From the NCBI GenBank assembly GCA_002245135.1, contig NGBS01000299.1, forward strand, positions 1-64,000: 64,000 nt of DNA, written 5' to 3'. How positions within the stretch are numbered: the first letter of the stretch is position 1; each line of letters begins with the position of its first letter. Shown here one piece after another: positions 16,122 through 50,530 of the stretch. The notes below the pieces were generated by a model, which made no database searches, was not told the DNA's origin, and saw nothing but the letters and a program-made list of their open reading frames with translations. The DNA comes from Proteromonas lacertae (Eukaryota > Sar > Bigyra > Opalinata > Proteromonadidae). The position numbers were made by a program, and so were the translations under genes.

Positions 16122-17757
16122 ATGTTTAATAATCGGTCATTCACGTCACCTTCAATAACTACAACATCAACTTCGTTGTTTGGATCACCTCAGCCAAACA
16201 ATGTATTTGGAAATAATAATCAAACTTCAAGTATTTTCGGAAATACCACTTCAAATAATGGTTTATTTGGAGGAACAATCAACAATTCATCATTTAGAGC
16301 AGGTAATAGTAATGCATTTGGAGCAGGTAATAATTCTTTTGGAAGTAATACAAATGGTAGTATTTTTGGTAATAATACTACTCAGAATCCCAGCAGTATA
16401 TTTGGTCAGTCTAACAGTGGAAGTGTATTTGGTTCTAGTTCTAGTAAAGGAACAAATCAATATAATGACACAACTTCAGAATCTTTAGGTAGAAATCCAA
16501 ACTCTTCAAATGTATAAATATTAATTATATCAATTAATAAAAATAAATAGAAAAACAAAGTAAACTGTTCGTTTATAAAACATCATATCTATTTCATGAA
16601 TCAATATGAAAAGAAACCAATAACCTTACTTCGTAGTGAAGATTATGAAATAAACAAATCAAATGGAGGTAATGCAGTTGGTGTTTTAGGTGGTGTAAGT
16701 AATAATAATGTAACAAATGGCTTATTTGGAGGAAATACAACAAGTAATACCTTTGGAAATGGAAGTGGATTATTTGGTGGAAATACAACCAATACAACAA
16801 CAACAGGAGGAGGATTATTTGGAAGTAATAATAATAATTCATCCTTTGGAGGTAATAATGGTGGATTATTTGGTGGAAATACAACCAATACTACAACAAC
16901 AGGAGGAGGATTATTTGGTCAAAATAATACAGCCACAACAACAACAGGATTAGGTGGAGGTTTATTTGGAGGAAATAGTGTATTTGGAGGTAATAACAAC
17001 AACACTAGTACAGGTGGTATATTTGGAGGTGGTATGAATAACACAACAACAACAACAACAGGTGGATTATTTGGTCAAAATAATAATAATAATACATCAG
17101 GAAATGGAGGATTATTTGGTCAGAATAACAAGCCAACTGGTGGTTTATTTGGTGGTGGAATAACTAATACAACATCTAATACTAGTGGTGGGTGGTGGTG
17201 GTGGATTATTTGGAGGAAATACTTCTAACACAACAGGTGGTTTATTTGGTACTCCTACAGCTAATACAACAACAGGAATAGGTGGTGGTTTATTTGGGGG
17301 AAATACAGCAACTACAAATACTACTCCAGGATTTGGTGGAGGTTTGGGTGGTGGTATATTTGGAAGTAATACAGTAAATAATAATCCTATAGGTGGTGGT
17401 GGTGGTTTATTTGGTCAAAATAATACCAATAATAATCCATTAGGAGGAAATACTGGTGGTGGTTTATTTGGTAGTAGCAATACTACAACAGGTGGTGGTT
17501 TATTTGGTCAAAATACTAATACTACAATTGGAGGTGGTGGTTTATTTGGAGGCAATAATAACAACAATGCTAATAAACCAGGTGGATTATTTGGAACTCC
17601 ATCAACTACAACAACAGGGTTAGGTGGTGGTTTGTTTGGAGGTGGTAATACTTCAACCAGTTTATTTGGTGGTAATAATAATAATAATAATAATACTGGA
17701 GGTGGCTTATTTGGTGGAAATACTACTACAGGTTTAGGTGGTGGTTTATTTAGTGGA

Positions 17758-17798
<41 letters not shown>

Positions 17799-20578: not shown

Positions 20579-20620
<42 letters not shown>

Positions 20621-21051
20621 GGAGAAGAACTTGTATTTTATATCACTTATTATGGTATTATGCTGATGAAAACTATGATATTTGCCATTTATTAGATAAT
20701 TGCAGTATATCTACAAACTCACATGATTATTTATTCACTTGGATCTTATATTATATAATTATAGCAATTAATAATTACGATATTAGTGAAAGTGATTTGA
20801 AGAATCAAGTTTATATTAATAATTCATTAATTGAACAATTAGAAGCTAATGGTTTGTGGGAATGGGCTATTTATGTGGGAAGGTTTAATCAGAAGAGTGA
20901 AATCAGAAGTGTGGTTTGTAGAGAAGTGCTTGAAAGAAATATTCCTGAAGAAATGAATCAAAAATATAAGACAATTAAACAGTTTTTGGAAGAAAATATG
21001 ATAATCAGTTTAGAAGAAGTTGAAAATGCAGAGAGAATGAGTAGATATTAA
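16122..21051 (+). CDS. NUP98: Nup98-Nup96 nucleoporin precursor (one frame break in the FG region)
   Basis: Nuclear pore component. The N terminus is GLFG-rich (SLFGSPQPNNVFG onward). A 39-base intron (16512-16550) leads into a GLEBS-like Rae1/Gle2-binding motif, MNQYEKKPITLLRSEDY, then many GGLFGG/GLFGQN repeats to about 18030. The autoproteolytic domain spans about 18780-19215 and ends with VEHFSRYSF. Cleavage is expected between Phe and Ser of HFS (19174-19182), releasing Nup96. The remainder is acidic and alpha-helical, with WFISIITNL and SLLLSQLNGDI typical of Nup96. A single extra G near 17190 (GGTGGGTGG) switches frame inside the Gly repeats, probably an assembly or slippage indel. Poly-Asn, poly-Gln and Asp/Glu runs are frequent. 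Confidence 0.93.
17758..17799 (+). repeat. (AAT)n microsatellite coding poly-Asn in Nup98
   Basis: An uninterrupted run of AAT triplets encodes about 13 Asn between GLFG repeats. It is in frame and likely length-polymorphic. Confidence 0.9.
19312..19341 (+). repeat. (CAA)n run coding poly-Gln in the Nup96 part
   Basis: Around ten CAA codons lie just after the autoproteolytic site, in the linker before the Nup96 helical domain. Confidence 0.85.
20581..20620 (+). repeat. (AAT)n microsatellite coding poly-Asn in Nup96
   Basis: About 12 AAT codons form a loop between helical segments of the Nup96 domain. In frame. Confidence 0.85.
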
Positions 21052-25180: not shown

Positions 25181-26325
25181 TTATATATCATCATCAATAG
25201 ATCCAGGAATATTATTATTGTTTAGATTACTTCTATATGAAGCTGTAATGTTTTTATTAAACATTAGTGATGAAGTACTATTTCTTACTTTAGCTGATAA
25301 ATATCTATGACTTGCTCTTAAATGTGATATATTATTATAAGAACCATTATCATACTCTGACATTAATCTATGTGATCCTTTTGCACTCCCTGAATTAATG
25401 CTTGACAATACTTTTGAGGGTCTTAATTGAGGTTCTCTTGGTTTGGTTCTTCTGAATATTTTATTATTCTTTAAAACACTTGGTGATTGTAAACTAAATA
25501 AACTTTTACATTGATTTACACCATTTGCAATTCCTAAAAATTTCTTGAATTTTATATCTCTAGCACTTGGAAATGACTCATAATCAAATCGACGATATTT
25601 CTTTAATTCTAATTTTATACAGAAACAACATGCATATTTGAGTTGTCCATTGTGTTTTTCTTTGTAATTTTCTCTTTGCTCTATTTCATACGGTCGAGAG
25701 AGTATATCTTCCACCTTCTTAGGAGAAAACAACACATCTCTAATTGTTGAACTAATTACTTGTAATAGCGTACAATTGGTGGATGTTGTTAATAACTGTA
25801 TATACAATTCATCAAACGTTAATGTCTTTAATGCAGATAGTTCTGGAGGATAAAGGGAGATTTGAGAGAATATTAATTGGAGTTTCTTGGGAGATATAGC
25901 ATTTTCACTTTCTATTTCTAATTCATGCAGTACAACTATTATAAACAAAAAAAAAAGATAATACATTTCAGCAAATAATTAAAAGGTAAAAATGCAAAGG
26001 CAGATACGTATTGAAAGAATAAATCGAATTGCATTACACCTATTTTATTATAATAAGATTTTAAAATACGAATTTTAATGAAGATGCGTTGGAATATGTT
26101 GGGAGACGGTAAATGAAAGGTTTTCTGAAATAAATTATATGTGATAAATTTTCCTCCTCTAAAATATAATAGACAAAAGAAAATACTTTTCTGTCATTCC
26201 TAAAAAAACTTGATAAATCAACGTTACGTCTGTAAAATTGTCTATAAATGCTAATTAGTAGAATAAATACAACAACAAAGCTGAGCTATTAATCTAGAAT
26301 TGTCATTGAGTTTTATTTCATTCAT
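25181..26325 (-). CDS. EF-hand-derived paralogous family, member 2
   Basis: Minus-strand member. The first exon begins at ATG 26325 (MNEIKLNDNSRLIAQLCC). The next exons read FQKTFHLPSPNIFQRIF and MQFDLFFQYVSAFAFLPFNYLL, which align with the matching exons of members 3 and 4. The main exon (about 25181-25937) carries NAISPKKLQLIFSQISL, a long helix and an RRFDYE block. It ends with a basic Ser/Asn-rich tail and an acidic SIDDDI terminus. Introns are inferred from the shared family positions. The upstream minus-strand element TTATTCGTTT (26371-26380) is a likely promoter box. Function unknown. Confidence 0.6.
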
Positions 26326-26370
26326 AAAAAAATCTAAAAAACTCGGCTTGAGTTCCTTTAATTTAATTTA

Positions 26371-26380
26371 AAACGAATAA
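26371..26380 (-). promoter_or_regulatory. TTATTCGTTT box upstream of family member 2
   Basis: On the minus strand, about 46 bases before the ATG at 26325. Variant of the CG-core motif described for other genes. Confidence 0.35.
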
Positions 26381-26430
26381 ATAACCCAAATCAATGGCAA
26401 TATATTTATAAGATAAATTATAACACAAAA

Positions 26431-27311
26431 TTAATTAATTATTTTTGAATGAGATAAAGCTGAGGAAACACTAGCAATTTCTGTTGTTTGATCCATTTCT
26501 CTGGCAGGGTTAACTATACTTTTAGATTTACTAATTATAGATGCTGGTACACCTACAGCTGTTACATTATCTGGTAGACTCCTCAAAACAACAGAATTAC
26601 TTCCAATCTTCACATTCTTACCTATATTTATATTGCCCAGTATTTTTACACCACATCCAACCATCACATTATTACCAAGTTTTGGATGTCTATCACCTGA
26701 TTCTTTGCCAGTACCTCCCAGTGTTACTTCGTGAAGGAATGAACAATTATCTCCAACGACAGCTGTTTCTCCAATTACTAATCCAGTTGCATGATCTATT
26801 AATATTCCTTTTCCTAATTTTGCTCCTGGATGAATATCTACATTGAAAACTTCACTAATTCTACTTTGAAAACATAAAGCTAATTCTCTTCTATTATGAG
26901 TGTATAAATAATGAGCTATCCTATAACTTTCTAAGGCTAAAAACCCTTTAAAAAATAAAACTTGTAATGGATTTTCACATGCTGGATCTCTTGTACACAC
27001 TGATATTATATCTTCTCGTATTGTATTTGCTAAATCTGAATTCTCTGTTAATATGCTAGTGATTAAATTATGTAAGTGCGAATGATGTAACATGTCATTC
27101 TTGAGTTTATCTGATAAACAGAAGGCAATTGATGATTCAAATGAGTTGTGATATAATATAGTTGAACTAACATAATTAGCTAGTATTGGCTCTTTTGTTA
27201 ACATGATTTCTGCATGATGTCTTATTCTATACATTAAAATGATTAACTTGGTTATATATACAATTGCCATAATATATCTATGCACTGAATTGAATATGAT
27301 GATTGAACTGA
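26431..27311 (-). CDS. cysE: Serine O-acetyltransferase (CysE type)
   Basis: Transfers acetyl from acetyl-CoA to serine, the first step of cysteine synthesis. The main exon (26431-27226) contains the N-terminal helical domain (IRHHAEIMLTKEPILANYV) and IISVCTRDPA. The hexapeptide left-handed beta-helix follows, with VDIHPGAKLGKGILIDHATG, GETAVVGDNC, HEVTLGGTGKESGDRHPKLG and the closing VPASI. The active-site His residues of DIHP and DHATG are present. A 35-base intron (27227-27261) joins an upstream exon reading LWQ into LIRHH, matching the usual W-x-x-I-R start of the family. That exon ends at 27311, and another may lie beyond 27343, so the true start is unresolved. A Ser-rich C-terminal extension of about 30 residues is present. 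CysE is common in bacteria, plants and some protists; bacterial or organellar origin is likely but not shown. Confidence 0.92.
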
Positions 27312-27583
27312 CTATATTATGATAATAAACGAAAATCTATACTGCAATACAACTAGATTGTATATCAATCTGATGAGGTAATGAAAATCCAACTTGTAGG
27401 AATTGAAGGACAATTTGCTAACATGATAATGTATGAAAACAATATATTGTAAACAAGTTTAAAAAACTCTACAAAAATCGTTTTTCCGTTATAAACTTGT
27501 TATGTGAATAAAAACACAAATTTACAATCTTTTTTTTTAATAAAAAATAAAATTTACTAATTTAAAGTTACATTTCAAATGAT

Positions 27584-29121
27584 CTAAGAAAAATCTGGTA
27601 AAGGAGGAGGAGGACGAGGTGGCATTAAAGGACTAATTTTATTATTACGGCCTGCCATGTTAAGCATTTGTCTATTGTATAGAGAGATACTATTCATATC
27701 ATTAGGAGAAAAATCAGCTCTTTTAGATTCAAATGGCGAATTAATTAAAGCATTGTCTTTATTTGAATTAACTGAGTTCTTACACGAATGAATAACTCTC
27801 TGTGACTTTATAAATGGAGAAGTCAATCCATTAGCGCCAGTAGATACAGCACCAACACTATTTCTTTTAACCCTTGTTTTATTACCAAAATCTATCACTA
27901 AATTCACACTATTCTTTTGAGAATTAATACTCTTCTTTAAATAACTACTTGTACCTTTTGGTGTATTAAGATGTTGTTGTTGTTGTTGTTGCTGAAGCTG
28001 CTGTTGTTGCTGTAATTGCAATTGAGCTTGTGATTGTAAATATATATTAGCCATTTTACTACTACCATGAGTGTTATAATTACTGCTATTACTACTGTGA
28101 TTAGCACTTGCACCACTTTTCTTTCGATGATATTTATATCCTAAATCTCTTTCTGAACTTATGGGTGAGGTTGGCAAGTTATTGTTATTGTTGTTGTTAG
28201 TACAACTATTTCTACCAGATCTAGATTTTGGAATAGAATAAAATGTTAAATGTGATTTTAATGTTTTAATAGAGGACGGATTAAATACAATTAATATATT
28301 TTCTAAAAATCTAGATATTACATTCTGACGGTTATAAGATGGTGTTTCATAATCATAATGCATTCTTGTTGGATGGTCTTTTCCACAATGAATTATCTTA
28401 AAACAACAGGGATTAGGAGGTAACTCTCGATACTGTGATTCATACTCTTCTCTTATTTGTATATAATTTGGACGTTCACTGATCTCTTGGTATTTTTCTG
28501 ACAATAATCCACTTCTTATATTTTGTCTGATTTTTAATAGTTTATCATAACTGTGTTTTTGTTGTGCTAGTAATTGGATCAATGAGTTGAAATGGACTGG
28601 ATATTCACTATTATAGATATAAGTATAATATATATATACATTCTTTCACTCTTAGCTACACTGTTATAGAAACTATCTGAACTGATTTCTTTTAAAATAA
28701 CTAAAACATCTTGCTGTGATAAAGGTTGAGTGTAATCAATGTTGAATATAATGCAAATGACTTTTATTATCAACTGAAACGGAAATACAGAAAATACAGA
28801 AGTGATTTGAAAAAAAGAATCCCAAGTCAGTGATTCTATTAGAATATTATACAATAATCTATATACCATATTTTTTAAATATTTCTTTCCACATTTCTTG
28901 AGTATTTAAATGAAAGATTGATAAAAAATTACTCATTGGAACATTTAACACAGTCCTATGTCAAGTTAAAAATACTTTAATACCCTCCTGTCAAATTCAA
29001 GAAATATATGTACAAACTCTGTATTTCTGACTGATTGTCTAAAAAATAGAGTAAAGAGTAATATACAGCAACATATTCGTGCTACAATTTCTGATTCTTC
29101 ATCTATAGTGCACAATTCCAT
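27584..29121 (-). CDS. EF-hand-derived paralogous family, member 3
   Basis: Starts MELCTIDEESEIVARICC at 29121. Splicing of GTAT...TAG introns then gives YNQSEIQSLYIYFLNLTG, NFLSIFHLNTQEMWKEIFKKY, ESLTWDSFFQITSVFSVFPF and QPLSQQDVLVILKEI, the same order of blocks as in members 1, 4 and 9. The large last exon (27584 to about 28580) holds a helical segment (YDKLLKIRQNIRSGLLSEKY), CCFKIIHCGK and MHYDYETP. A long Asn/Ser/Gln-rich tail includes a poly-Gln run (about 27975-28030), and the C terminus is PPRPPPPLPDFS. The Pro-rich end could bind SH3/EVH1/profilin-type partners. That is inference only. Confidence 0.62.
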
Positions 29122-29310
29122 AGCTAAAGCATAATTAAAAAAAATAGTTATATTTGCTTGGCTTGTATTTAAAAGAAAATATGGTCGTTACATCATTTTT
29201 TAATAATCAAAATTTTGCTTCTACAACAAAGAAACCTCTTAAATTCATCAATAAACTTGTTCCATACAAATAAAATAAACAAAATAGAAGAATAATAACA
29301 ATAAGCAGAT

Positions 29311-30860
29311 TTATGGAGTATCAAAAGTTGATTCTTTTGGAGTTGTTGGGGTTTTATTAACTCCTCCTTTCTATAAAATACACTAAATAATGCAATATAT
29401 ACTGTAGCCTTCTTTTTATTACGAAGATTATCATAGAAAGAAGCAATTCTATCCTTCTATATTGAAAATAGTAATTAAAATAAAATACATTTGTATTTGC
29501 TGCAACAGATATTGTCTTCTTACCAACTGTAGTTGTTGTACTGCTAGCCACTTTTGTATCTTTGAATAAAGAATCAATAAAACAATCAGGATCAAGTATA
29601 TAATCATCTTCATCTCTTCTCTATTACATATTAATAATATATATACTGTAGAATTATCTGCAGGAGTTAATGGAGTTGGTGTTCTTGCATTTTCCTCAAT
29701 TTCTAATCTCAAAGTATTCAATTTATCTTCATTATCCCAACCAGAAGGGATAAATATATTTTTAATGTCATTTCTTCCTCTGTAATGATAGTTAAATATA
29801 TTTGGGTAAAATCTATGATATAAATAGGTTTGTAATTGTAATAGATTCATATTGGAACTTTCTTGTATGGAAGTATAACAAACAGCAGCTCGATCTATAA
29901 TAATAATAATAATAATAATAAACAAATATATACATCTATAAGCAGCAGATCTAAGATAATTAGATACAATTTTAGATTTCTGTGGTATACCAACTGATTC
30001 ACAATGTGTACAAATGAAAACAATTGGAATTCCACAATTCTCAAATGAACTATTATCATCATTAGTATCATTTGAAGGAGTTGAAGGATATTCATCCTTA
30101 TTCATACCATCCTGTTGTTGATTTTGTTGTTGTTTTAATGGTGTTGTAGGTGTAGCAATGGGTGTCTCTAATACATTTACTATTGATTGGTTTAATCTAT
30201 TTACAATTATATCATTCTCATCATCTTCGGTTGGTTCTTTATAATTCTTTAAGTATTCTACTATATTTTGCTTGGCTATATTTAATTGTTCTTCAGAGAC
30301 ATTGAATTGCTTATCTAAATGATCCATCCACTATTTTATAGATATAATAATATTATTATATGTTATTTTTTATACAGATTCTATGCTTTTTTGAATTACT
30401 TCAACAGATTTTGTTAAATCAATAACAATTGCAATTATTGACTAAATTACAGGAAAATAAAATAAAATATATACATTGTGTATTGTTGAATCATTAATAT
30501 AAAACAGTAATTGACTTCTTAGACTTTGGTGAGATATTGAGTAAATATTAAGATTGACATCAGGACCTATGAATAGTAATGATATTGTAACAATACCAAT
30601 TGGAGATGAAGATGGGGCTTTTGGATGAATAAGAGGAATAGCTTGATATGCACAAATTAATGGTGTTTTATTCTCTTGATCTTTTTTCTTACGCTGACAA
30701 CCTAAAGCTTTCATGAGTGTTTTCTTACCAACACCCATATCGCCTTAATTGAATAGATAATTACAAATATACCTAACAAAAACAATGTACTTTCCGGCAT
30801 TGTTGATTCTTTAGCAATATCATCTAAAATTGCTGACCACAATGATTTATTTTGATCCAT
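29311..30860 (-). CDS. Cytoplasmic dynein light intermediate chain
   Basis: Subunit that links the dynein motor to cargo adaptors. It begins MDQNKSLWSAILDDIAKES (ATG at 30860), matching the family's W-x-x-I-L start. The Ras-like domain has a P-loop-like GDMGVGKKTL, in which Lys replaces the usual Ser/Thr directly after GK. Later blocks are IIAIVIDLTKSVEV, WMDHLDKQF, CGIPIVFICTHCESV, AVCYTSIQESSNMNLL, FIPSGWDNEDKL and DDYILDP. The C terminus reads RIASFYDNLRNKK then KGGVNKTPTTPKES. Small introns interrupt it, one of them containing an (AAT)n run near 29900. It is head-on with family members on either side. The nucleotide site is probably altered, as often in this family. Confidence 0.85.
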
Positions 30861-30993
30861 TTTATAAAGCTAATCAAGCCAAATAGCTTGCAAATCTTTT
30901 ATGAATAATTCTTGATTTTGTTGTTAATTAGAATGTATAGACCACAATTGCATAATTAAAAGAATAGTAAATACGCATTTATAAATAAAATAA

Positions 30994-32409
30994 TTATTTC
31001 TTCTCCAAAGTTTTGTTAGATTCTTCTTCTTCTAAAATTGGAGGAGTTTGTTCGACACTATTTGGATTTAAATTAGGTTCAGGAGTTGTATCTTCAGCGT
31101 TATTACACACATTTATCAGTTGATCACTTGTATTTACTCCTCTCAACAGTTCCAATGGTGTTTCTAATGCCATAGAATTTTCATACTCTTTTGCTCTTCT
31201 TGCAACTCCCAAACCAGCAACTTGTGTTCTATTACTTGTAGATCTTCTTCTTCTTACTGCATTATTCACATTGTTGTTATTAGGAACACTACCACTATGT
31301 GCGTATAACAATGCTTGGTTAGTATTATGTGGCATTTGTAATGAATTCTTAGATTTGAGTAATGGTGATAATGCACTTATGGAATTGGAGTTTGTTCCAA
31401 TTTCTTTATTTGTGCCATTGTTTATTACAGTATTATTATCTGTCGCATCACTACAAGTACTATGTCTGTATCTACCAATATTACTACTTCCACCATGAGC
31501 TAAAGATTGACCAACTGTTGATGTGGTTCTATTCGTTGAATAGCACCTTTCACTAAATATTATCCGTATATAATCTAACAACATCCTTATTGCTACTACT
31601 CTTTGACTTGCACTTACTTCATAATCAAATTTATCCACATTTTTTGAACAAGTTATAGTGTTATAAATAGTTAAACAAAAATTTCTTTTTGGCAATTTTC
31701 CTCTGTGAGTTTGTTTATATTGTTCTCTATACTCTAATACATTTGGCCTGTCGAGAATTTCATTACTCCTTGAAGCTGAAAATATACTTCTACAAAGATG
31801 TTTACGTATTTTGGTGATTTGAGTATAACATTCTGGATTCTTTTCGATTATTTGTATGAAATCTTGGAGAGTTAAAGGATAAGAAAAGGACTGTTCTTCA
31901 GATATCTTAAATATATAATGTGGATATGCTATTTCATTCATTACAGCATCTACTTCAGCTTTTGTTAATAGATTTCTTGGATCTATTCCTACCAGTATTA
32001 AAATTACTATTTAAATATACAATATTAAATTATTTTATACATTGAACATAGGTTGATAAAGGACTGAATGCAAGAAGAGAATAATACTGGAAGAATGTAT
32101 TCCATTCCATGTGTCCTAATATAAAGATTATTAAATCCCATTAAAAATACTATATTGTTTAAATATTTTCTTTATAAAATAGTAAGATTGAATCTTAAAA
32201 GAAGAAATAAAAGTAGAATAATTTATATAAGGCGATTCCCTATGTTTATTTAGAAAAATAAAAAATACTTGTGGGTATGATTAAGAAAAAAAAGGTAGAT
32301 AGCTCTAATTTCGGTTTCATCATCTAAAAGCATAAAAATAAAGTATACAGCAACATAGTTGAGCCACCATTAAGGATTCTTGATTTAAGACACTACTCTC
32401 AGTGGTCAT
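30994..32409 (-). CDS. EF-hand-derived paralogous family, member 4
   Basis: Starts MTTESSVLNQESLMVAQLCC at 32409. Splicing gives YDDETEIRAIYLFFLNHTHK, ESPYINYSTFISSFKIQSYY, HMEWNTFFQYYSLLAFSPLS and LVILILVGIDPRNLLTKAEV, with introns of 25-35 bases at the same places and phases as member 1. The main exon has a helical block (IIEKNPECYTQITKIRKHLCRS), a Y-REQYKQTH motif, VDKFDYEVS and a long Asn/Ser-rich tail ending in Glu/Lys. The frame can be followed exon by exon without breaks. Confidence 0.65.
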
Positions 32410-32604
32410 TTAAAAAAATAACTTAAAAAATTTGAAGAGCAAAATTCAATTCATTTTATCCTATTTAATTTATATATTTTAATTTGATTTTAAAATGAAT
32501 AAAACGGTAAATTAAAAAACACAAAAAATTCTTTGTTAATCTTCACCAACATACAAATATAAAAGAAGACTAATAAATATATATCTTATTTAATCATGTA
32601 AAAT

Positions 32605-33932
32605 CTATTCAAAGACATCTGCTAAATCATTTGCTTTTAAACTTCCATTTTCACAATCACAGATTTTTGCAGGAACACCTTCATCATAATCTAAACATGA
32701 ATCTAAAGACAATTTTCTAACATCACTCTTCTTATCTGGTGTTGCAAAATCTATCAACATTTTTCTGTTATTCATATCAGGTGTATTTGCTGTAGTATTC
32801 ATTTGAGTTAAACTACAAACAGACCCACCTTTCTTTCTCGCTTTTGAATCAAATATTTTATCTGAAATAATTATCAAACTATTTGCTTTTTTCTTGTTTG
32901 TATCAGATCTTGCAGAATGCATAGAATGTGTAGATTTCAAACTATTTCTCAATGAATTTGTTGCTCTCAATGGTCTTGTACTATAACCATATCTATATCT
33001 CATAGTTGAAACAATTCTTGTGACTTTTTCTACTTTTTCTTCATTAGTAAATGGTTGAAAATCACAACGATATGGATGAGGTCTATTGGTGAACAAAACT
33101 CTTGATAAATGATCAAAGCAGGTTTCTGGGGGTAAATTTACAGCAGTTTCATTCTTTTTAGCCAAATTACAATAGAAATAAATTCTTTGTAATGAAGTTA
33201 AATAAACTTGATGAGTTATCATTCGGTTTATTATTGCTTCTTTTATCAACCTTAGTGGTTTTACTATTTTGGATGTTGTATGAAACTCTTCGAAGAAGCC
33301 AGCTATTGGGACTCTTCTTTCTTTATCTCTTTCTAATGAAATAATCCATTCTTTTAAATAAGTATCATTTGGAATATTACATTTTTGAAGAAAATCTATA
33401 ATCTGGTCTTCTGTGATTGCAAGGTTTGTAAATATTCCACAACAACTTAAAAGTACTTGAAATACCATCATAAAGTCGAAATATACATAAAATAATACAA
33501 ATTCTATAAAATTATCCATAGATATTCTATTCTCTATTAAATAAATAAATGTATAATATACGGCAATATTTAAAATACTGTTCTAATATAGGAAAGCTTT
33601 CTAAACGAAAGTGCTTGTTAAATGATTCTAAAGTAATGTAATTTTCTGTAGAATTTTCATGCCAAATATCTATATATTCTTTTTGTATATCATTTATATC
33701 ATTGTATTGCACTAAAACATAAACATAAAGATATACGACATAAATATCTTGCAATAAGTAAGTTATTCTCAGATAATTTACATATAGTTGTTTTAATTTT
33801 TTTGGGATATGAAAAGGACTTTATTAACTCCAATGATTTCATCTTAGGTCAAAATAAAAAAATAAAAAATACCAACCCATCTTTAGTAGCAATATATGGT
33901 GGACCATTATTTAGACTACTCGAAACATCCAT
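32605..33932 (-). CDS. EF-hand-derived paralogous family, member 5
   Basis: Putative start at 33932 (MDVSSSLNNGPPYIATKDG). Spliced blocks include YNDINDIQKEYIDIWHEN, YITLESFNKHFRLESFPILE, MDNFIEFVLFYVYFDFMMVF and LAITEDQIIDFLQKCNIP. The long helix IVKPLRLIKEAIINRMITHQV follows. Next come PPETCFDHLSRVLF and the family tail motif MRYRYGYSTRPLRATNSLR, then a Ser/Asn/Asp tail. It is divergent from the metzincin gene. The tail motif groups it with members 6-8 even though it sits in the minus-strand array. Confidence 0.62.
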
Positions 33933-33981: not shown

Positions 33982-34098
33982 ACATTCAGTTATACAAAAT
34001 TAAAAAGTTTCTTATTCTAACATCAAAATGAAAGAAAAGAGTAAAATGCTTTTTTATGATAGTTCGTGTAACATCAATATTTATCCCAACATATACTT

Positions 34099-37000
34099 AT
34101 GTTATTTTTATTGATTAATTTTATTCTTCAAATGAACAAAAAGCTTGACTTGTCAAACAATTTATTAAAAAGATATTTGATGATATTTATTTTGCTTTTT
34201 CTCTTCTGTCTATCACGTACTGAGCTTGTGACTAATGCTACTGTTGAGATATATTATGATTCTCACGAAGCATTATATCTAAACTATGAACAAGGGTATG
34301 TTAACAAAATTGTGAATCATCACAACTTTAAACTATCTGCTGGTCCTGCCAAGGCTACATTTGATATAAATAATCATGAAATCACATTATTACATTACTT
34401 CCCACAACCTAAGCCGGAAGAAAAGCCAATACTAGGTGCTTATTCACCAATGTACAATAAAGTGTTATATATAGGAGTATTTAGAGGTGCTAATAGAAAG
34501 GATAAGACTAAATGTACTCCAATAGCTAAAGCCAAAGAATATGTGAAATATGTAGATCTAGGTATGAGACTGTGGGGTGCAAACCAATTTAGAATATCTC
34601 AAGGTGATGATTTATATGTTAGTTCCCAATGTTTAGTAATTGATGAATCAATTTATGTAGAAGGCAATTCAGGTACAATTAACAATGAATTGTATAATGC
34701 AGCTGCAAAGATTGATAAAATACCCAAAGTTGCTGTAAGATGGTATGTAAATGATGATTATTTAGGAGGATGGTTAGGTTTAGCAGCTGTTGGTAGTCCA
34801 ATGGTTGTAGCAAATAGAAATTCAAACTATTGGTTAATATGCAAATATAATCCAAGTGTTGAAGATCTAGGTAATGCTAAATTAACAACAATAATGCATG
34901 AGTTTGGTCATAGTACTGGTTTCCACCATGGAGGTACGCAAAACGCTGATGCAACAGGAGTATTTACTACTTTTAATGCAGTTGATAACTATTATGATTG
35001 TGGTAATATAATGGGAAATTGTGCTCCTTGGGATAGAACGATTACTGCTAATCAATATTTTGTTATGATTGTAAGAAGTAAGCCAGAACCGTGGATGTTT
35101 AAATATCCTGAGGAAGGTATTCATAAATATAGATTATATGCATTTGATCATCCGTATTCAAGATATTTCTTAGGTACAAATGTATCATTCCACAATGATA
35201 CTGAAGTGTTTGATGGAATTCCATTTAAATATAACTGTATAGCAATCAGAGTGTTAGTTAATAAAAATATGACCAGTAAATATATAGGAGCAGATGGAAC
35301 ATCTGGTTCAATAATGTTAGAATATAAATGGAATGGTGGAGGAACACAAGGGCCTCAAGAATTTGGTGTGAGAGTAACTTATGGTTTTCATCAAACTGGT
35401 AATTTATTACAAGCAAATTTTGACGGTTTTAAAACCTGGGGAGATAGTGAAATAATGACAGGAGTTGATTATTATCCGTCTGATTTTGATACAGGAACCT
35501 TAAGAATTAGGAGTAACAAAAATACATAGAACAGTATTGAAAGAAGCTAAAGAAATTGAAATAGCTAAAGAAGATAAAAGAAGATATGATGAACCAGGTT
35601 ATGTAGAATTAGAAATTGAATATTTTCCAAATAGGAAACCACCAACATTATCACCTCCCAAAGATTTACCTAATTTCCAAACATCTCCAAGCTTCTTTAA
35701 CTGTAAAAAGAAAGATGATGGTAGTGGTTATACTTGTTCAAGATCTACTACAGCTAGTGGATGGTTTTACTTTATAAATAACGGAAATAGAGATAAGAAT
35801 ATACCAAGATGGTATACAGCAAAAAAGGATGTTATTAGAAACAGAATATCACTTCGTTCTTTTAATGGTAATGATTACTCAAGTACATTATTATGTTATG
35901 GAGATAAAGGTAGGAAATGCATAACAATGAATGTAGAATCAGTAAGTTTCTCAGGTGTTACAAGAAAGAATTATCAAAATGGTAGAGTAACTAGAACTAA
36001 ATCAAATGATGGAAATGCAACAGCTGAAGATTTAGGAAATGCAAATGTAATCTATGGTAGTGGTTTAGAAGTTCCTGAAGGTGGAAGAGCTTATATTACT
36101 GATTTATTTGGTAATGAAAGAGATATAAAAGTAGTTAATAAAGAATTTGTGGAATTATTACCTCCATTAGAAACTGATGGATTTACTGAAGGAGCTGTAG
36201 TAGTAAAAGATAAAAGTGGAAAAGTAACATATTATAATGGTTTTACATTCTATCATCCAGAAAATGGAAATAGAGCAGCAGTTCAATTTAATGATAATGG
36301 TGGATATACATTATCTGCAGCAGTTATGCCAAATGAAAAGTGGTCTACAACAACAACATTATTATATCCAATTACAGTAAAAGCAAATAATTGGTTTACT
36401 TATCCTATCACATATATGAGAGATAATGATTTTGTATTTTTTGATTTTAAAGGGAAAATACCAAGTGGATTAGTAATGACAATTGAATCAGATAATGGTG
36501 AATTTTCAAAAGATTTAAGTGCTTTAGAAGGTTTGAATAGTGCATCATATAAAATTACGTTTTTAGAAATGAATAAAGTAACAGGTGGTTGGGGTGAGAT
36601 CAACAGAGTCAGATTTAATAAAGATGTTCAACTACAGAATATAAGACCAGTATATGCTAGTAAAGTTGGAAATCAAATAACAGCAGTAAAAGCTGTGAAA
36701 GAAAGTTTCAATTTCAATGGTTATAGATACACAGTAGATGTTCCTGCTACTCAAGCAACGTATATTTACAACAAAGTGGATGTAGATATAAATGGTGAAG
36801 AATATACATTTGATAGTTCAACAACTTCTCAAACAGTAAAAAGTATAGAAAAGAAAGGATTAAGCACTTTTGTAATAGTTTTAATAATTTTAGCAGTTGT
36901 AGTTGTATTAGCTGGAATAATCTTTATATATTGTAAAATCAAATCAAAGAATAGAGGAAGTAGTAGAACTTATACACAAAATGCATATTCAAGTAGACCT

Positions 37001-37135
37001 GTTGGTGCTGCATCTACTTATAGACCACCACCTGTTGCTATGGGTGGTACATATGGTCCAAGAGGTACACTTCCACCAAGAGGTCCAGCACCTAGTGGTT
37101 ATGCTGGAGGTTATGCTGGTGGATATAGAAGATAA
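34099..37135 (+). CDS. Membrane-anchored metzincin metalloprotease (gametolysin/M11-like), one frame break
   Basis: A hydrophobic leader lies near the N terminus (MIFILLFLFCLSRT from 34180; in-frame ATGs at 34099 and 34132 are upstream). The zinc site HEFGHSTGFHH is at 34897-34929, with three His in HExxHxxGxxH, followed by a Met-turn-like NIMGNC about 40 residues on. A long extracellular region follows, then a transmembrane helix (FVIVLIILAVVVVLAGIIFIY, near 36868-36930). The cytoplasmic tail is rich in Tyr, Pro and Gly, including RPPPVAMGG and GYAGGYAGG. The frame changes once at about 35515 (ATT AGG A GTA ACA), where deleting one A joins both halves; protein character is continuous across it. 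The M11 assignment rests on the motif and overall look and is moderate; another metzincin family is possible. Confidence 0.7.
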
Positions 37136-37309: not shown

Positions 37310-40300
37310 ATGAGATTCAATATATTTATTCTCTTTTTAATATTTTCGTTTACAATAGCGAAGCCTGGTGGCAAATCTTTACCTATATGTATGACTGTTA
37401 TATTATTTTTAGGTGCATTTTTCAATGAAGGAAGTGAGTCATCTGAATCTACAACATCTTGGTGTAAAGAAGGGATATTGGTTGAATTAGCAGCTAGAGT
37501 ATGCTTTTTTATCTATAATTGTCAGTCTGCTGTTGAAGTTATCAATAGTAACGATACATTAAACATAGAAATTAATTTTCACGCTCATGATTGTGAAAAC
37601 TGGGAGTATATATTGTATTGTATATTCTGTAAAGAGGGAAATGTTTAAGTGAAGTAGAAAAATCAATAAAATATGACAATCCATGGATAATAATGGGTGC
37701 AGGATCTAGGTATGTTTATTTTAGTTATATTTATTGTTGTCATTATAGTGAAATATCAAAATTTGTTCAATTTTATTGTATGTCATACAATATGAATCAA
37801 ATTGATTATGGTTCAACTGCTTCTGTCTTATCTGATGTGTTTAAATACACCAATTTAGCAAGAGTATCCGTTACAGATAGATATTTAACAGATGCTTTAT
37901 TTGATTTGATATTAAAAATCGGATGGAAATATATAACAATAATAGCAGAGAATTCTGATTATGGTACTTCCAGTTCTGAGATGTTTATTCATACAGCAGA
38001 AAAGAAACAAATTGATTTAGAAATTATAGTATATATAATATATTTAATTATAATTTATTTTTATTAATATAGGGAAGTTATTTAATTGAATCACATGTTA
38101 GTTTACCATACACTGAAGATTCATTAGAAAGAGTGACAAGAATATTACAAAAAATAAAAGAAGGAGAAAGTAGAGTAATTATACTATTTTCACATTCATC
38201 AGTAGCACAAGCAATATTATACAAAGCAAATGAACTTGGATTAATTGGTAAAGGTTGGAGTTGGATATCAACGAAATGGGGTGTTGTAGATACATGGAAA
38301 ATGAGTAATGAAAAATACTCTGAGACAATAAAGCAAGCAATGGAAGGAGTAATTGGTGTATCAGCTACAAAAGGTGACAAAAATTTGTTATATGAAAAGA
38401 TGAAGAATTACAGTGAGAAACATCCTGAAGTAGTCGATGAATTAAAAAGGAAGTGTGATTTAGATGAATTAGTGATTGACACACAAGAGATGACACCAAT
38501 GATATTTTATGCTTATGATACTATTCAAGTAATAGCAGATGCATTTTTAATAAAGTATATTTTGTTATTTTTTATTTATTTACTTTCTAGCAATGATAAT
38601 AAAACCTTCTTTGATTCATTAAAAGATAGAGAATTTCAGGGAATAACAGGATCTATTCGATTCGATAATAGCTTTGATAGAATTAGTACAACAGTTGATG
38701 TAACAAATATGAGAGATGGAAAATTGTATGTTGTTGGTAAATGGAATCCTGATATTATAAGTATTTTTTACTTCTTTTTTTAAATTCTTTAATAGATGGA
38801 ACGATATATAAAGGTTCTGGCACATTTAAGAAGACAGATAAAATATATTATGCAGATAAAACTACAAATATTCCATCAGATCGATTTATAGAAGAAGAAA
38901 GTTCAACTGCTGAATTTTTCACAATTGTTACTTTGTTGTTAGTAACTTCATTAGCATGTGGAGCTGTAATTGAAGAATTTGATATTCATCGATTTCCAGA
39001 AACTGCCGCAGTTGTAATTTTAGGTATTATTACTGGATTGGTAATTCGTTATGGGTTTGGCAAAGGTCTTCAAAGAGTATATAATATATTATTATTGTTA
39101 TTATTATTATTATCAATTAATAGACAGCAATGTTCAACGAAGAATTCTTTTCATTGATTCTTTTACCCATTATTATATTTGAATCAGGTTTTGGTATGAA
39201 GAATAAAGAATTCTTCGTTAAACATATTGGAACAATCTTAGTATATGCTGTAATTGGTGCATTTATGACAGCTATGTTGGTTGGTTCAATGTTATTAATT
39301 CCATTCAATAATAATTGGTTTTCATTTAAATGGAGTATATTTGAAGATTTTTCTTATGGTTCATTAATATCAGCAACAGATCCTGTTTCAACATTAGCAA
39401 TATTTGGATCATTAAAAGTAGAACCAATGTTAAATATGTTAATATTTGGTGAAAGCGTTGTAAATGATGCTGTATCAATTGTATTATTCAAAACATTCAC
39501 TGGATTTATGGTTACTGATATTACAAAAACCGCAATCTTATGGGCAATAGCCAAATTCTTTATTATGTTTATAGGTTCAACTTTAATTGGAATAGTTTTA
39601 GCTATTCTCTGTTCATTAGTTTTAAAAGTTTCTCCTATACACCATCCAGTGTTAGAATCAGCAATTATCTTCCTGGTTTCATATATGTCATTTGAAATAT
39701 GTGAAGCATTAACACTCTCTGGTATTACTTCAAGTGTATTCTGTGGAATTGCTATGAATTATACAGCTAGAAAGAGAATGAGTGTGAAAGGAAAAGAGTT
39801 TAGTTACACAATGTTTAGAATGCTTGCTCAAATATCTGAAACATTTATATTCTTTCAAGTATAATTATATATATATATATAATAGATTGGTTTGAATGTG
39901 TTCTTATATATGGATATTAAAGATGTTCCATTTGGCTTGACTTTCTGGATTTTATTTGAAATTGTTATTATTCGAATATTTATGATTACCTTCCTTACTT
40001 TCTTTGTAAATTTATCTCGTAAGTCTAATAAAATACCTTATAATTATCAAGTGATTCAAATATATGCTGGATTAAGAGGAGCAATTGCTTACTCTTTATC
40101 AGTTTCTTTCCCAAGTCATAATAGACCAACCATTGTTGCGTATTTATATATATATATATATTATGTGATTATATTGTTATAGTGCAACTATGTGGATCAT
40201 TTTATTAACACTATTCATACAAGGATGTAGTACCTATGATATGTTGAAATGGATGAAAATACCACTTGGTGTTGAGTATGTTAAGCCTCCAGAAATGAAG

Positions 40301-40459
40301 CAAGAACATGATCTAAGTGAATTACTTGATGCATATACTCCTAAATCTTTGAAGAAGCTGTTTAGTAAATCATCACGTAGTGTTAATTCATCAAGAAGAA
40401 AAGCTAATGAAGAATATTTATTAGCTGAAGATATGGATGATGAAATAGTATATCAATAA
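37310..40459 (+). CDS. Fusion of an ANF-receptor/class C ligand-binding ectodomain to a CPA1 Na+/H+ exchanger
   Basis: Eleven exons: 37310-37388, 37413-37498, 37526-37605, 37635-37709, 37749-38028, 38073-38554, 38591-38760, 38796-39076, 39124-39858, 39886-40139 and 40183-40459. They sum to 2799 bases: 932 codons plus stop, with no frame break. A signal peptide (MRFNIFILFLIFSFTIA) precedes a venus-flytrap domain: AVEVINSNDTL, IIMGAGSS, QIDYGSTASVLSD, IGWKYITIIAENSDYG, and GKWNPDI at its end. Exon 8 alone carries the last ectodomain strand (GTIYKGSGTF) and the first exchanger helix (FFTIVTLLLVTSLACGA). The exchanger has LLPIIIFESGFGM, SATDPVSTLAIFG, GESVVNDAVSIVLF with the Asn-Asp pair of electroneutral exchangers, and AGLRGAIAYSL. 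The C-terminal tail is short, about 80 residues. It is predicted to couple extracellular ligand binding to Na+/H+ exchange; that coupling is inference. Confidence 0.9.
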
Positions 40460-44827: not shown

Positions 44828-45933
44828 ATGACCGAGAATGTAATTGATGAACTAGTATATATTAGTAATACATTTTGTAAAAATAGCATGATGGATTAGT
44901 ATATTATGAAAAGCACAGAAGTCACAGACCATATGACCATTTACTTGTTCATTTTAATTCAACAACCCTTAGATTACTTGAAAAAATATATGGTATTTTA
45001 ACTAATATGATATTATAGCTAACAACTATGAAGTGAGTGAATGGGAATATTTCTACCTGAAAATTTGGAAAGAAGACCCAACACAAGGTGATGTTGCAGC
45101 AAAAGTTATCTTAGGGAGGTTAGGAGTGCAAGATGTTCCGCTTTTCCAATCTTATTTTGCTCCATTTGGAGGAAGAATAAGTATCTCTCATTTCCTAGAA
45201 TTTATAACTTTATTTACCTTTTTCCATCCAGATCAACTATTGCCACTTAATTTATTCAATGATTCAAGTAAAAAGTAACAGATTTATCACAGAAGATCAG
45301 GTCTTTGTCTTGCTACATTATCTTAAAACTACACCAGATGGTTACCAAACAGTCGGTGTATGGTTATCTGATATAAAAAAGGATGAAAACGGTTTTATAC
45401 CTTTAAATGAATTAACTACTTTACTCTTGAATGAAATGTCAATATTATATATTTTATCAGAGTTAAAATCCAAAATAATAGAAACTATCATTACCTTTGA
45501 GGTATATCAAGGCATAGAACAGAAAAGAATATATTACGATGATTCTCAAATGACTGGTATTAAGCCGCCATCAGAAAGTTGTGTGTCTAGTATGTTGCGA
45601 CAGATGTTTTCTCATTACCCTCCTCCTTATTACTGTTCATATACTTATATACAAAGAGTGAGTATTGAGGATATATTGTTTGTCATAAGACAAAGATTTG
45701 GATATAGTACAAGACCTAATTGTGAATCATCTACTGCTTTACATTCCTCAGTTTCAACCAATAGTCTTAGAGTGTTGAAGAGTGTAGTATCACACGAAAC
45801 ATTAAGAAGTAAATCTCAAGTTAAGCCTTTAAACGTCAAAAAGAGCACAAATAATATGGAAATGAATAATTATTATAAAGTTAGTACAAATAGAATGTTT
45901 CAAGACAATACAAAAATTTCTCCTCTTATGTAA
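44828..45933 (+). CDS. EF-hand-derived paralogous family, member 6 (one frame break)
   Basis: Exon 1 is MTENVIDEL (44828-44854). After a 32-base intron comes HDGLVYYEKHRSHRPYDHLL to LLEKIY, then a 26-base intron and NNYEVSEWEYFYLKIWKED. A degenerate EF loop reads KKDENGFIPLNE: positions 3, 5, 6, 8 and 12 fit an EF-hand, but position 1 is Lys. The helix after it, LKSKIIETIITFEVYQ, resembles the exit helix of EF-hand regulators. The conserved end is PSESCVSSMLRQMFS, then IRQRFGYSTRPN and a Ser/Asn tail. One extra base near 45249 (CCACTTAATTTATTC) breaks the frame where sibling genes read LLPL-IYS. Confidence 0.62.
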
Positions 45934-46075
45934 GCAATTATCAGCATATTAAGAGTAAAATATTAAGTTAATTTATTATGAATTAGTTTTATTAGTTGTT
46001 TTGTCATTTATTAAAGAAAGTGGTTTTTCAAAAACTCAGATCTGGTATTGCTCGTTTTTTAGAAAATCATTTGTT

Positions 46076-47382
46076 ATGGTTGAAGAAAAATTAGACGAAT
46101 ATGTAGATATTTTTTTTCTCTATTTATTATGTATAGATTAATGGTATAGAGTTTTACCAGAAGCATAAGAATAGAAGACCTTACAACTACCTTCTTGTTC
46201 AGTTTAACCCAATCTGCTTGCCTTTTCTTGAAAGAATATATGGTATAGTGAGAATATTTATATTTTGTAGTTAATAATTACGAATTGTCAGAATGGGAGT
46301 ACTTTTATCTGAAAATATGGCAAGAAGACACAAGTCAAAATGATATTAGCGCTTCGCAATTATTAGAGAAATTAAATGTAAGAGGAATACCGATTTTTCA
46401 GAATTATTTCGCTCCTTACAGTATCACTAATTTTTTTAAATTATTTTTTATAGATGGTCGTGTATCTTTATCTATATTTTTGGAATTTATATGTATTTTT
46501 GGATTTTTCACAAATGAACAACTATTACCACTGTTATACTCCATTTCTAATGTAAAAAGTAATAGAGTCATAACAAAAGAACAAATAATTATATTTTTAC
46601 ACTCGCTTAAAGTACCTTTAGATCAATTACAACATATCTCAGTATGGATGGCAGATGTGGAAGATGAAAATGGATTTATACAACTAAACACACTAACATT
46701 ATATATACTAAACGAAAGATTGTTATTTTATTCAATTTATTCAATTCAATCTCAAATCATCGAATTTATAATAACAAGAGATGTATATGTTAGAATCAAT
46801 AGAAGAATGAAGTATTATTCAGATGTAGCAGAACCCAATATCGAGCAACCTCCAGAGTCTTGTCTTAATTATTTACAAAGAATAATTTTTTCAAACAATC
46901 CTCCACCTTTTTTTTTCTCTTATGCACCTTATAATCGTAGATTAAACCCTGAAGATTTGTTGTATGTAATAAGACAAAGATATGGTTATAGTATAAGACC
47001 AAACAGACAAAGTTCGTCAATGTTAAGTTCAAAATCAACTCGAAATAATCATAACAGTAGTATTAATAACATGAATACACTAAATGCAAATTATAAGAAA
47101 ACAACAACAACAGCCAATAGTAGCAGTAACAAAACCACTACTACTGCTACTACATATGGAAATACGTCTTCAATGACAAGGAATTCTCTTCTTGCAGGTT
47201 CAATTAGTTCAAATACTCTTAAAATTGCGAAATCACAAGTTCTGGTTGGTCATTCACCTTATACTAAACATTCTTCAAAATCAACTACTATTGATACTGA
47301 TAAATCTTTTAGAAATAAGACAAATTCAGCTAAAGTAGTTCCGTTAACATATCCAAATGATTGTTTGGAGGTAAAGGATTAA
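46076..47382 (+). CDS. EF-hand-derived paralogous family, member 7
   Basis: Exons: 46076-46102 (MVEEKLDEY), 46137-46242 (INGIEFYQKHKNRRPYNYLL to FLERIY), 46271-46420, and 46454-47382. The intron 46421-46453 is 33 bases and stop-free, so retention would only insert 11 residues; the sibling without it shows it is an intron. Blocks: NNYELSEWEYFYLKIWQED, RVSLSIFLEFICIFGFF, VKSNRVITKEQIIIFLHSL, degenerate EF loop VEDENGFIQLNT, IQSQIIEFIITRDVYVRI, PPESCLNYLQRIIFS and IRQRYGYSIRPNRQSS. A Thr/Ser/Asn-rich tail follows. The frame is intact. This is the best template for the plus-strand subfamily. Confidence 0.7.
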
Positions 47383-47688
47383 TATTTATTTAACATTGTG
47401 TAATAAATGTGTTATTTTTTATTTAATTCATTATGATTTCAATTCTTTTTATTATATAATTGGTGTATTTGTTATATTTGTTGTGTTGGTGTGTTGTTAA
47501 ATAACATTACTCGCTATAGTCTAAAATCCATTGCATATGTGTAATCACCTCACTCTGATGATTCAACTGTTAATGTTAGATATTATATATATTGTACTAA
47601 TATGTATATTAACATTTCATTATCTTTTTTCTACTTTTACACATATTCTTAAAATCAGAAAATAGTTTCGTTTCAAAACTAAAGATTT
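47383..47688. other. Intergenic region between members 7 and 8
   Basis: AT-rich, with no coding signal. Contains the GTTTCGTTTC box at its right edge (separate entry). Confidence 0.6.
47665..47674 (+). promoter_or_regulatory. GTTTCGTTTC box
   Basis: 15 bases before the ATG of family member 8 (47689). Variant of the CG-core motif. Confidence 0.4.
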
Positions 47689-48890
47689 ATGATTTCTGAT
47701 ATTCAGCTACCTCCACTACAGATTTTGGTATGAAATACTATTTAGTTATTAAATAGACCAACAGTTACGAATATTATATCAAACATAAAAGTAATAGACC
47801 AGCAAATTACCTTATAGCTCCAATAGATAAGAATATTTTTACCTTATTCGAAATATTACTGTGTATAAAATATAATATATTTATAATATTTATGTTAGTA
47901 AATAATTATGAGATTTCTGAATGGGAAGCTGTTTATCTTCATATTTGGTCTGAAGATAAAACTAAGCCTTATATATTTGTGGGATCATTCTTAAAATATT
48001 TGAATTGTGAAGATATACCAATACTTAAATCTTATTTTCAGCCATATGAAGGTAAAGTGACAATGACAATATATATAGAGTTTATATGTATTTTTGTATT
48101 TTTATCAAACAAACAATTATTACCTCTCATTCTGTCAATAACAAACGTTTATAGTAACAAAGTTATTTCAGAATTGCAGATTTACAACTTTTTTCATTCA
48201 ATACACATAGATAATGAGACACTTTTAGCTGTTCCAAGTTTGCTATTACACGAAGTAGAAAGAGATCAAAATAATCTAATTTCACTAGTTTCATTCATGA
48301 GATTCCTAGTTACAAATGAAGAATTTCTAAAACCTCTAGCATATGTTAAAAACAGTATTATTGAAAGAGTAATAACTGAAGAAGTATATTATACAATACT
48401 GAGAAGAAAGAAATATTTTGTTGATCAAGTAGAAAAACAAAAGAAGGCAGGTGAAACAATGATCCTTTTGAAATTCCCTCAAGAAAGTTGCATTAGTCAT
48501 ACAATTCGAACGTTATTTAGTGATAAGCCGTATGAATATTACTATGATTATATACCAAAGAATTTTATTAGTAACATAATGGATCGTGATATAAATGACA
48601 ATGAACACGAATCTGCATTTGACGAATATATAACAGTGATAAGAAAGCAATTTGGTTATAGTAATCGACATAATAGCAAGAATAGAAGCCAACTATGTAA
48701 ATCGAATAACAAGCTATTAAGAGAAAGTGGTAGTGAACACAATACGAAATCTCGTTTAACAAAACTTACGATTGATAAAGATGTATTTAGAACATCTCTA
48801 ATAAATGTTGCTTTTTCAGAAAATAGTAATAATATACAAACAGTTCTTTCACCTTTGAAAGCTACTCATACTTCTGTGTTTGATTCTTAA
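47689..48890 (+). CDS. EF-hand-derived paralogous family, member 8
   Basis: Starts MISDIQLPPLQIL. A 28-base intron leads to TNSYEYYIKHKSNRPANYLI and LFEILL, then a further intron to NNYEISEWEAVYLHIWSED. It continues VTMTIYIEFICIFVFL, KVISELQIYNFFHSI, a worn EF loop (ERDQNNLISLVS) and VKNSIIERVITEEVYYTI. The end is PQESCISHTIRTLFS, VIRKQFGYSNRHN and a Lys/Ser/Asn tail. Head-to-tail with members 6, 7 and 9, consistent with local tandem duplication. Frame intact. Confidence 0.68.
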
Positions 48891-49062
48891 TATTGTAATT
48901 TAGTTAGTTGATTATATGTATAATATTTCTAATTTATATCCCATGTGTATATACATGTAAATATTATGTATTATTTAATACAGTATTGTAATCTAAGTAT
49001 TTTATTCATTTTTATTTATATTTCAGTTATATTTTAAAGTTTTATTGTTATTTTAAAAAATA

Positions 49063-49072
49063 TATTCGTTTC
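49063..49072 (+). promoter_or_regulatory. TATTCGTTTC box
   Basis: 66 bases before the ATG of family member 9 at 49138; identical to the boxes at 21084 and 10028. Confidence 0.4.
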
Positions 49073-49137
49073 ACAAAATTAAAGAATTTCGGTTATAAAT
49101 TTATGAAAAGGTACTACTGAGAAAGCTATTTCTTTTC

Positions 49138-50530
49138 ATGAATATCGATATAAATAATATCTATAAACTCTGCTATTGTATTTTTAGCATTTAATATCCT
49201 TTTTATAGTTAATCAGTGTGAAGTGGATAAGATCCATGAAGTGTTTGATAAAATTGCTGACTCGTATTGACAAAATTTTATGGTAATATTACTATTAGAA
49301 ACGGAACTGTCACATTTGAGAAATTTATTACCACATTTAAAATTGACTGCTGTAGTATAATAAGTCAGTATTTTCTGCGATTCAGTATAATATAAAGTTA
49401 TTTTGATAGAAACTATTAATTATGATCAATTTGCTATTCTGGTATGTAGTCTAGGATTCTTAAGAATAGAACAATCACTTCCTAGTATTTAAAATATGAT
49501 GTATTATTTAATAGTACTTATGTTAATATTAAGTGTAAATTATGAAAATAAGATAAATTTAGATAATGCCATAACAATCCTTAAAGATTTTAGCACTACA
49601 GAGTATGTAGAAGAATTCAAAAATAAAAAGAAAGAAGTTTTTCCAATTGAATACAAATACTTCAAACATTACATTAAAACACATCCAAAGTGTCTAGAGA
49701 ATTATGAAATCCTTCGACTAAAGATTGGATATATATTTTTCCCAATAATGCATAGGTTACAAGAAATCTATCATAGAAGAGAGAAAATAGTTATAAAATA
49801 TAAACTAAATAACATTGTTCCAACCCAAATAATACAAAATATTGATGATGAATTAGATAAAGAAGATGAAGAAAATGAATTAAATCTAACGACACCCATT
49901 ATTCGACCTAGAGACTCTGTTAATCTTGTAAAATATCCAAATGAATCATATTGTGAGATTTTCTCTAGGATGATTAACAAAGATCCATATCCTTATAAAT
50001 ATGATTATGAGATGAATATAGATGATGAACAGAATGTATTAAATCTAATCTACAAACAAATGTCAATTGTATTTCTCTTTTTCCAGCCAACAGTTGTCAA
50101 ACGAGAAAATCCATTTATTGAATCAATCAAAAGAGATGGAGAAACCTTTACAGTTACATCTCCTGAAACAATAATGAATAGAAATAGAGAGAAACAATTA
50201 GCCAATCAGCCTTCAAGAAATAGATCACTTGTGACGTCACTATCGACAAGTGATATGGAAGGAGGAGGTTGTTCGTCATCTTCACTGAATCACAAAATAA
50301 ATGGAATTCATATGATCAGACATCATGATAGTTTATTAAATGATAGTAATCAATCCTTTAACCAATCTAGACCAATATCTAACTCAATAGATGGCATACA
50401 TATTGTTGTTAAACCGTCTTCTCTTCACATTAATTCGAATTTACTTTCTGCTAATCCTTCTACAGTAGACTGTCATTCAATTAATACCAAAACTGTAGTA
50501 CCAGAAATTTGTTCATCTGTAGATAGTTAA
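49138..50530 (+). CDS. EF-hand-derived paralogous family, member 9
   Basis: Starts MNIDINNIYKLCY. Four introns of 25-35 bases then join NQCEVDKIHEVFDKIADS, NGTVTFEKFITTFKIDCCSI, INYDQFAILVCSLGFLRIEQ and ILMLILSVNYENKINLD. Intron positions and phases match members 1 and 4, which places it in that subfamily despite lying next to members 6-8. The helical half reads YEILRLKIGYIFFPIMHRLQ. It continues with an acidic insert, CEIFSRMINKDPYPYKYDYE and a Ser/Asn tail. Frame intact with these introns. Confidence 0.66.

Follow-up and report, generated by a model that had tools for sequence, protein, structure and literature searches.

The gene at positions 37310 to 40459 (forward strand) of the window, by which we mean the whole stretch of 64,000 nucleotides of Proteromonas lacertae DNA that was analysed, is a true fusion of a venus-flytrap domain with a Na+/H+ exchanger. 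Flytrap-exchangers of this type are a conserved family and not a one-off, and the family is apparently undescribed. Judging from the sequences compared here, we lean towards regarding its members as ligand-modulated receptor-exchangers, in which the flytrap is docked by a fixed linker on TM1 of the exchanger.

Gene structure and domain composition

We spliced the gene by hand at ten short introns, which gave a translation without internal stop. Splicing and translation bore out the coordinates, the 11 exons and the junction exon 38796-39076 of the original prediction, while the length of 932 codons given there had to be corrected to 930 amino acids plus stop, that is 931 codons. All ten introns start with GTAT, end with AG and measure 24-47 nt; their GC content is 0.146 compared to 0.296 in the exons. 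Blastocystis introns are of similar shortness, around 32 nt (PMC3129679). The features of the gene are as follows.

37310..40459, forward strand: whole gene, 11 exons, 930 amino acids plus stop (spliced by eye, translated)
37310-37388, 37413-37498, 37526-37614, 37650-37709, 37749-38028, 38073-38554, forward strand: exons 1-6
38591-38760, 38796-39076, 39124-39858, 39886-40139, 40183-40459, forward strand: exons 7-11
37310..37363, forward strand: signal-peptide-like hydrophobic N-terminus, residues ~1-18 (hydropathy peak at residues 3-21, 1.58)
37481..38884, introns included, forward strand: flytrap, ANF_receptor residues 50-400 with the end extended to P-x-D-R 442-445
38796..39076, forward strand: junction exon 8, residues 416-509, a single open frame that runs from the flytrap end over a short linker through TM1 and TM2
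38885..38899, forward strand: flytrap-TM1 linker, residues 446-450
38900..40252, introns included, forward strand: CPA1 exchanger, TM1 residues 451-477 (hydropathy), Na_H_Exchanger 475-862
39376..39384, forward strand: TDP motif, D595 identical in 14/14 members
39463..39468, forward strand: ND motif, N623 and D624 identical in 14/14
40069..40083, forward strand: GLRGA motif, R818 identical in 14/14
40262..40456, forward strand: C-terminal tail of ~65 residues (translation), presumably cytosolic by NHE topology; length and sequence vary among relatives

An ANF_receptor domain and a complete CPA1 exchanger had been predicted in a single frame, and both were recovered with Pfam scores so far above the cut-offs that chance is excluded: PF01094 covers residues 50-400 (E 2.4e-43, 149 bits, cut-off 25.4) and PF00999 residues 475-862 (E 3.9e-52, 177.8 bits, cut-off 26.2). 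The protein also scored 319.3 bits with NCBIfam TIGR00840 (b_cpa1), above the cut-off of 251.25, and TIGR00831 (a_cpa1) stayed below its own cut-off.

Elsewhere in the window, the region 34072-37135 (forward strand) contains a metalloprotease-like frame with HEFGHSTGFHH (Reprolysin_3 just under its cut-off) and, after it, a second frame that overlaps the first, has a membrane anchor and gave no match in Pfam; the two are probably one gene. Frame clusters at 25181-33582 (reverse strand) and 45208-50530 (forward strand) include several frames with a common motif like RQR[FY]GYS.RPN; two of the frames were scanned and gave no Pfam match, and the clusters possibly represent a lineage-specific family. 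Nucleoporin-like frames with GLFG repeats lie at 16551-21051 (forward strand), and 558-4976 (forward strand), perhaps extending to ~5539, holds a gene that resembles class C GPCRs in combining a 7tm_3 domain with flytrap-like stretches, of which there are three (PF13433/PF13458).

Evidence for a single fused gene

Exon 8 opens with the last strand of the flytrap, the conserved end of which is IYYADKTTNIPSDR, and continues directly into TM1. The first in-frame methionine after residue 400 is residue 512, past TM1 and TM2, and exon 8 holds none; a separate start for an exchanger gene therefore does not fit. These observations uphold the original view that the junction lies inside one exon and does not mark a misjoined neighbour, as does the recurrence of the same architecture in a collinear paralogue and 12 other database proteins (see below).

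An exon model could misjoin two adjacent genes, and an intron does lie between the end of the Pfam flytrap (residue 400, exon 7) and exon 8. However, since the flytrap's last strand and TM1 share exon 8 without an in-frame methionine, and since the domain order is the same in the paralogue and the 12 database proteins, such an error is hardly conceivable. It is also countered by P0001 (1042 aa, 3129 nt with stop), for which the longest listed contig has 3188 bases, so that introns would barely fit.

The paralogue and other genes of the host genome

The paralogue lies on contig C992 at 124971-121861 (minus strand) and encodes 919 aa in 11 exons with the same domain order; it is 40% identical to the window protein over 876 residues. 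Position and phase are identical for three introns of the two genes, those at window residues 27 and 55 in the N-terminal flytrap half and that at residue 839 in the exchanger half. Another three have matching phases and lie within 10 columns of each other, and four disagree. Since intron positions are shared in both halves, the ancestor of this duplication was most likely already fused.

In the genome of the host, 50.2 Mb in 1181 contigs, there are at least 14 exchanger matches and at least 31 flytrap matches; of the three best flytrap matches, one is the C992 gene and the other two are exons of the window gene. Eight regions around exchanger matches were compared with the window and C992 flytraps, and only that of C992 matched at E 1 or better. 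Thus, two genes carry the fusion, beside several ordinary exchangers. Two exchanger matches, on contigs C721 and C752, scored identically and may represent two haplotypes or a duplication in the assembly. Many other flytrap matches fall within open frames of more than 2000 codons. On contig C158, triose-phosphate isomerase and GAPDH are joined in one 567-codon frame (L060, L063), a fusion that is a typical stramenopile trait.

Related proteins in databases

A database search with the exchanger half (residues 440-930) scored 8000 candidates and returned 198 matches, of which the best 120 were examined. The pairing of PF01094 and PF00999, for which a search had been proposed as a check, was found in at least 12 further proteins among these best 120 of 198 matches, all of them within the best 15. 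They are at most 44% identical to the window protein over the exchanger half. 'NhaP-type Na+/H+ or K+/H+ antiporter' is the label of three of them and 'sodium/hydrogen exchanger 8' that of one; P0002 is a EukProt record, named in the manner of predictions made from transcripts, and the other 11 come from sources labelled lgn, ena, jgi or ncbi. The family appears to live in protists. A fresh Pfam scan detected both domains in all 14 aligned members, window and C992 proteins included, with ANF_receptor at E 0.001 or better.

The original prediction knew of no described exchanger with such a receptor domain. In agreement with this, a search of open-licence papers found no description of a flytrap-exchanger protein; the domain pair itself, however, is already present in databases, in proteins that are unnamed or carry the label of plain antiporters. 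The one paper found with both PF01094 and PF00999 (PMC3534327) assigns them to different groups of C. elegans proteins.

Searches by other routes returned little. A full-length single-protein search with the window protein gave no matches, and an alignment-based search returned only an insect flytrap-kinase protein (P0121) and a plant glutamate receptor. In our opinion, both failed because the words used for searching were drawn from the flytrap, the half that changes fast. Among viral contigs, 57 stretches fit a pattern and none encoded a relative, and on prokaryote genome contigs seven loci gave matches confined to residues 442-880, the exchanger half.

The exchanger half

Among solved chains, NHE9, NHE6, NHE3 and NHE1 are nearest to the exchanger half. 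The six ion-path residues that were compared (D595, E619, N623, D624, R784 and R818) are identical in the 14 members, and the TDP, ND and GLRGA ion-pathway motifs named in the original prediction of a complete CPA1 exchanger are accordingly in place, with D595, N623, D624 and R818 kept in every member. The ND motif is typical of electroneutral exchangers, and we take the window protein's exchanger to be of this kind. By domain and residues, the protein can be assigned to the CPA1/SLC9 Na+/H+ exchanger family, and exchange activity is predicted.

It resembles SLC9/CPA1 exchangers (NHE, NHX) in its complete exchanger domain, its ND and GLRGA motifs and its TIGR00840 score above the cut-off. In contrast to it, 108 of the 120 listed matches have no precomputed ANF_receptor domain. 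In the trees described below, a single clade, away from the named NHE3, NHE7, NHE9 and NHX1 rows, takes in the fusion rows. The sperm Na+/H+ exchanger SLC9C1, whose chain matched the exchanger half more weakly (E about 1e-21), is likewise an exchanger fused to regulatory modules, namely a voltage sensor and a cyclic-nucleotide domain. Pfam gave no match to either of these in the 14 fusion members, and the added module of the window protein would, unlike those of SLC9C1, be extracellular and N-terminal. Eight fusion proteins (P0003, P0004, P0006, P0008, P0010, P0012, P0013 and P0015) carry a long hydrophilic insert in an exchanger loop, which is possibly regulatory and is absent from the window protein.

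The flytrap half and its candidate ligand

Solved chains of mGluR8, mGluR6, mGluR7 and other mGluRs are nearest to the flytrap, which is also close in sequence to T1R3 and GABA-B2 chains; the profile of the fusion family matches GLR3.4 and GluN1 chains. For the binding pocket, we considered five positions that we take to be the glutamate contacts of mGluRs (in mGluR1 numbering S165, T188, D208, Y236 and the Asp before a conserved Trp). The window protein has the mGluR8 residue at four of them, the S165-, T188-, D208- and Y236-like positions. At the fifth, where 11 of the 14 members have D/E, MAFFT places K against the Asp, although the alignment is unsure at this point, HMMER putting the neighbouring T, not K, opposite the mGluR8 Asp. 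The C992 paralogue has all five mGluR8 residues in the MAFFT placement, and its D against the K of the window protein would predict that the two flytraps differ in specificity.

Across the family, the S165-like position is S/T in 8 of the 12 members with a residue there, the T188-like position T in 10/14 and the D208-like position D in 11/14; Tyr occurs at the Y236-like position in only 6/14. Most members with a residue thus keep mGluR-like letters at four of the five pocket columns. This partial conservation suggests an alpha-amino acid or similar zwitterion as the most likely ligand and favours a specificity that differs between family members, both of which we offer as leads only.

Alternatively, the flytrap may read extracellular cations or pH and feed back to the exchanger on its ionic surroundings; in the calcium-sensing receptor, a flytrap senses Ca2+. 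Such a sensor would suit an ion exchanger and would be compatible with the fixed linker described below, but the mGluR-type amino-acid contacts at four of five positions of the window protein speak against it, and we consider it unlikely.

The likeness to class C GPCRs (mGluR, GABA-B, calcium-sensing) extends from the flytrap, similar to those of mGluR, T1R3 and GABA-B2, to its attachment, since the linker between flytrap and membrane part is short, as it is in GABA-B. The effector of the window protein, however, is a transporter, and the Pfam scan found no 7tm_3 domain in any of the 14 fusion members. As in ionotropic glutamate receptors, an N-terminal flytrap sits on an ion-moving membrane protein, here with an exchanger in place of the pore. 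Ligand-gated channel, kinase and cyclase domains had no Pfam match among the 14 members, in which the scan matched only PF00999, PF01094 and, in 5/14, PF13458. Venus kinase receptors also have a flytrap fused to a non-GPCR effector, which in their case is a kinase across a single TM as opposed to a multi-TM exchanger.

Family history

In a tree of the 120 rows, the 15 fusion-labelled rows fell within one clade of 23 (SH-aLRT 99). A second tree of 39 of these rows gave a clade of 20 (support 100/98) that includes four rows without flytrap, P0016 (Triparma), P0017, P0080 and P0093. An exclusive clade of fusions was weakly rejected (p-AU 0.041), so that the fusion label needs three changes. Our reading is one gain with losses of the flytrap; repeated gain is possible. 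P0005 (both trees) and P0067 (39-row tree) were scored as fusions on account of a flytrap tail in their N-termini, where Pfam did not call ANF_receptor. Three rows of the larger clade without a Pfam flytrap were omitted from the 39-row tree, P0011 because it begins inside the exchanger and P0102 and P0113 for their long branches, while P0067 was retained despite a long branch. NHE1 is absent from both trees.

As to the site of action, the protein may be a lumenal sensor in an internal membrane, such as that of an endosome or a digestive vacuole, and link the pH of the lumen to the solutes in it, for instance to amino acids set free by digestion. Its nearest solved relatives NHE9 and NHE6 are endosomal, which agrees with such a role. 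In the trees, however, the fusion rows stand apart from the animal NHE7/NHE9 rows and from the bird NHE3 row alike, so that kinship does not reveal the location. Overall, a lumenal sensor seems possible, if rather unlikely.

Conservation of the junction and coupling of the two halves

The 14 members of the alignment (A1) were the 12 database proteins, the window protein and the C992 paralogue. Their halves meet at a P-x-D-R motif, in which P442 and D444 are identical in 14/14 and R445 in 13/14. From this motif through the end of TM1 there are no indels in any member, and a hydrophobic segment starts at most 6 residues after R445 in all of them; a loop elsewhere in the same alignment varies by more than 100 residues. 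The identity distances of the flytrap and exchanger halves correlate (Mantel r 0.871, 0 of 9999 permutations as high), with a mean identity of 0.25 in the faster-diverging flytrap and 0.43 in the exchanger. Trees of the two halves concur in joining window and C992, then P0001, then P0002, and conflict at P0007; in the flytrap tree, only 3 of 11 branches are well supported. Both the rigidity of the junction and the way in which the halves co-vary support a coupling of flytrap and exchanger.

Ligand control is put in question by relatives inside the fusion clade that lack a flytrap and by pocket residues that vary in the family. Together with the faster divergence of the flytrap, these would be in line with a dimerisation, folding or sorting module that acts without ligand control. 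Such a module appears improbable to us, given a junction and linker free of indels in 14/14 while the other loop varies so widely, and given the mGluR-like letters that most members keep at four of five pocket columns.

Proposed mechanism

In the ligand-modulated receptor-exchanger that we favour, the flytrap would face the outside (or a lumen), docked via the fixed short linker on TM1. Since NHEs and class C flytraps are both dimers, the protein is probably a homodimer. The flytrap would bind a small ligand, for which an alpha-amino acid or similar zwitterion is the most likely candidate, and closure and re-orientation of the flytrap pair would move TM1 via the fixed linker. This movement may raise or lower Na+/H+ exchange and would thereby act directly on pH or Na+, with no G protein involved. 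A ligand-gated switch without G protein had been part of the original prediction, which agrees with the lack of 7tm_3 in 14/14, the fixed linker and the partial amino-acid pocket signature, whereas the gating itself is what we infer.

Significance

Flytraps drive GPCRs, cyclases, kinases and channels. From the sequence comparisons, we tentatively suggest that the flytrap-exchangers might constitute a new receptor class of exchangers, on which an amino acid or similar ligand acts as a direct gate via the flytrap, and by which several lineages of single-celled eukaryotes would convert a chemical signal into pH or Na+ without a G protein. If this is true, a secondary transporter as direct flytrap effector would be a new kind of output, and an exchanger would act as a receptor. 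With a junction that is conserved and rigid, the idea can be tested in existing NHE assays. Such a protein would also let single-celled organisms connect nutrient sensing directly with pH.
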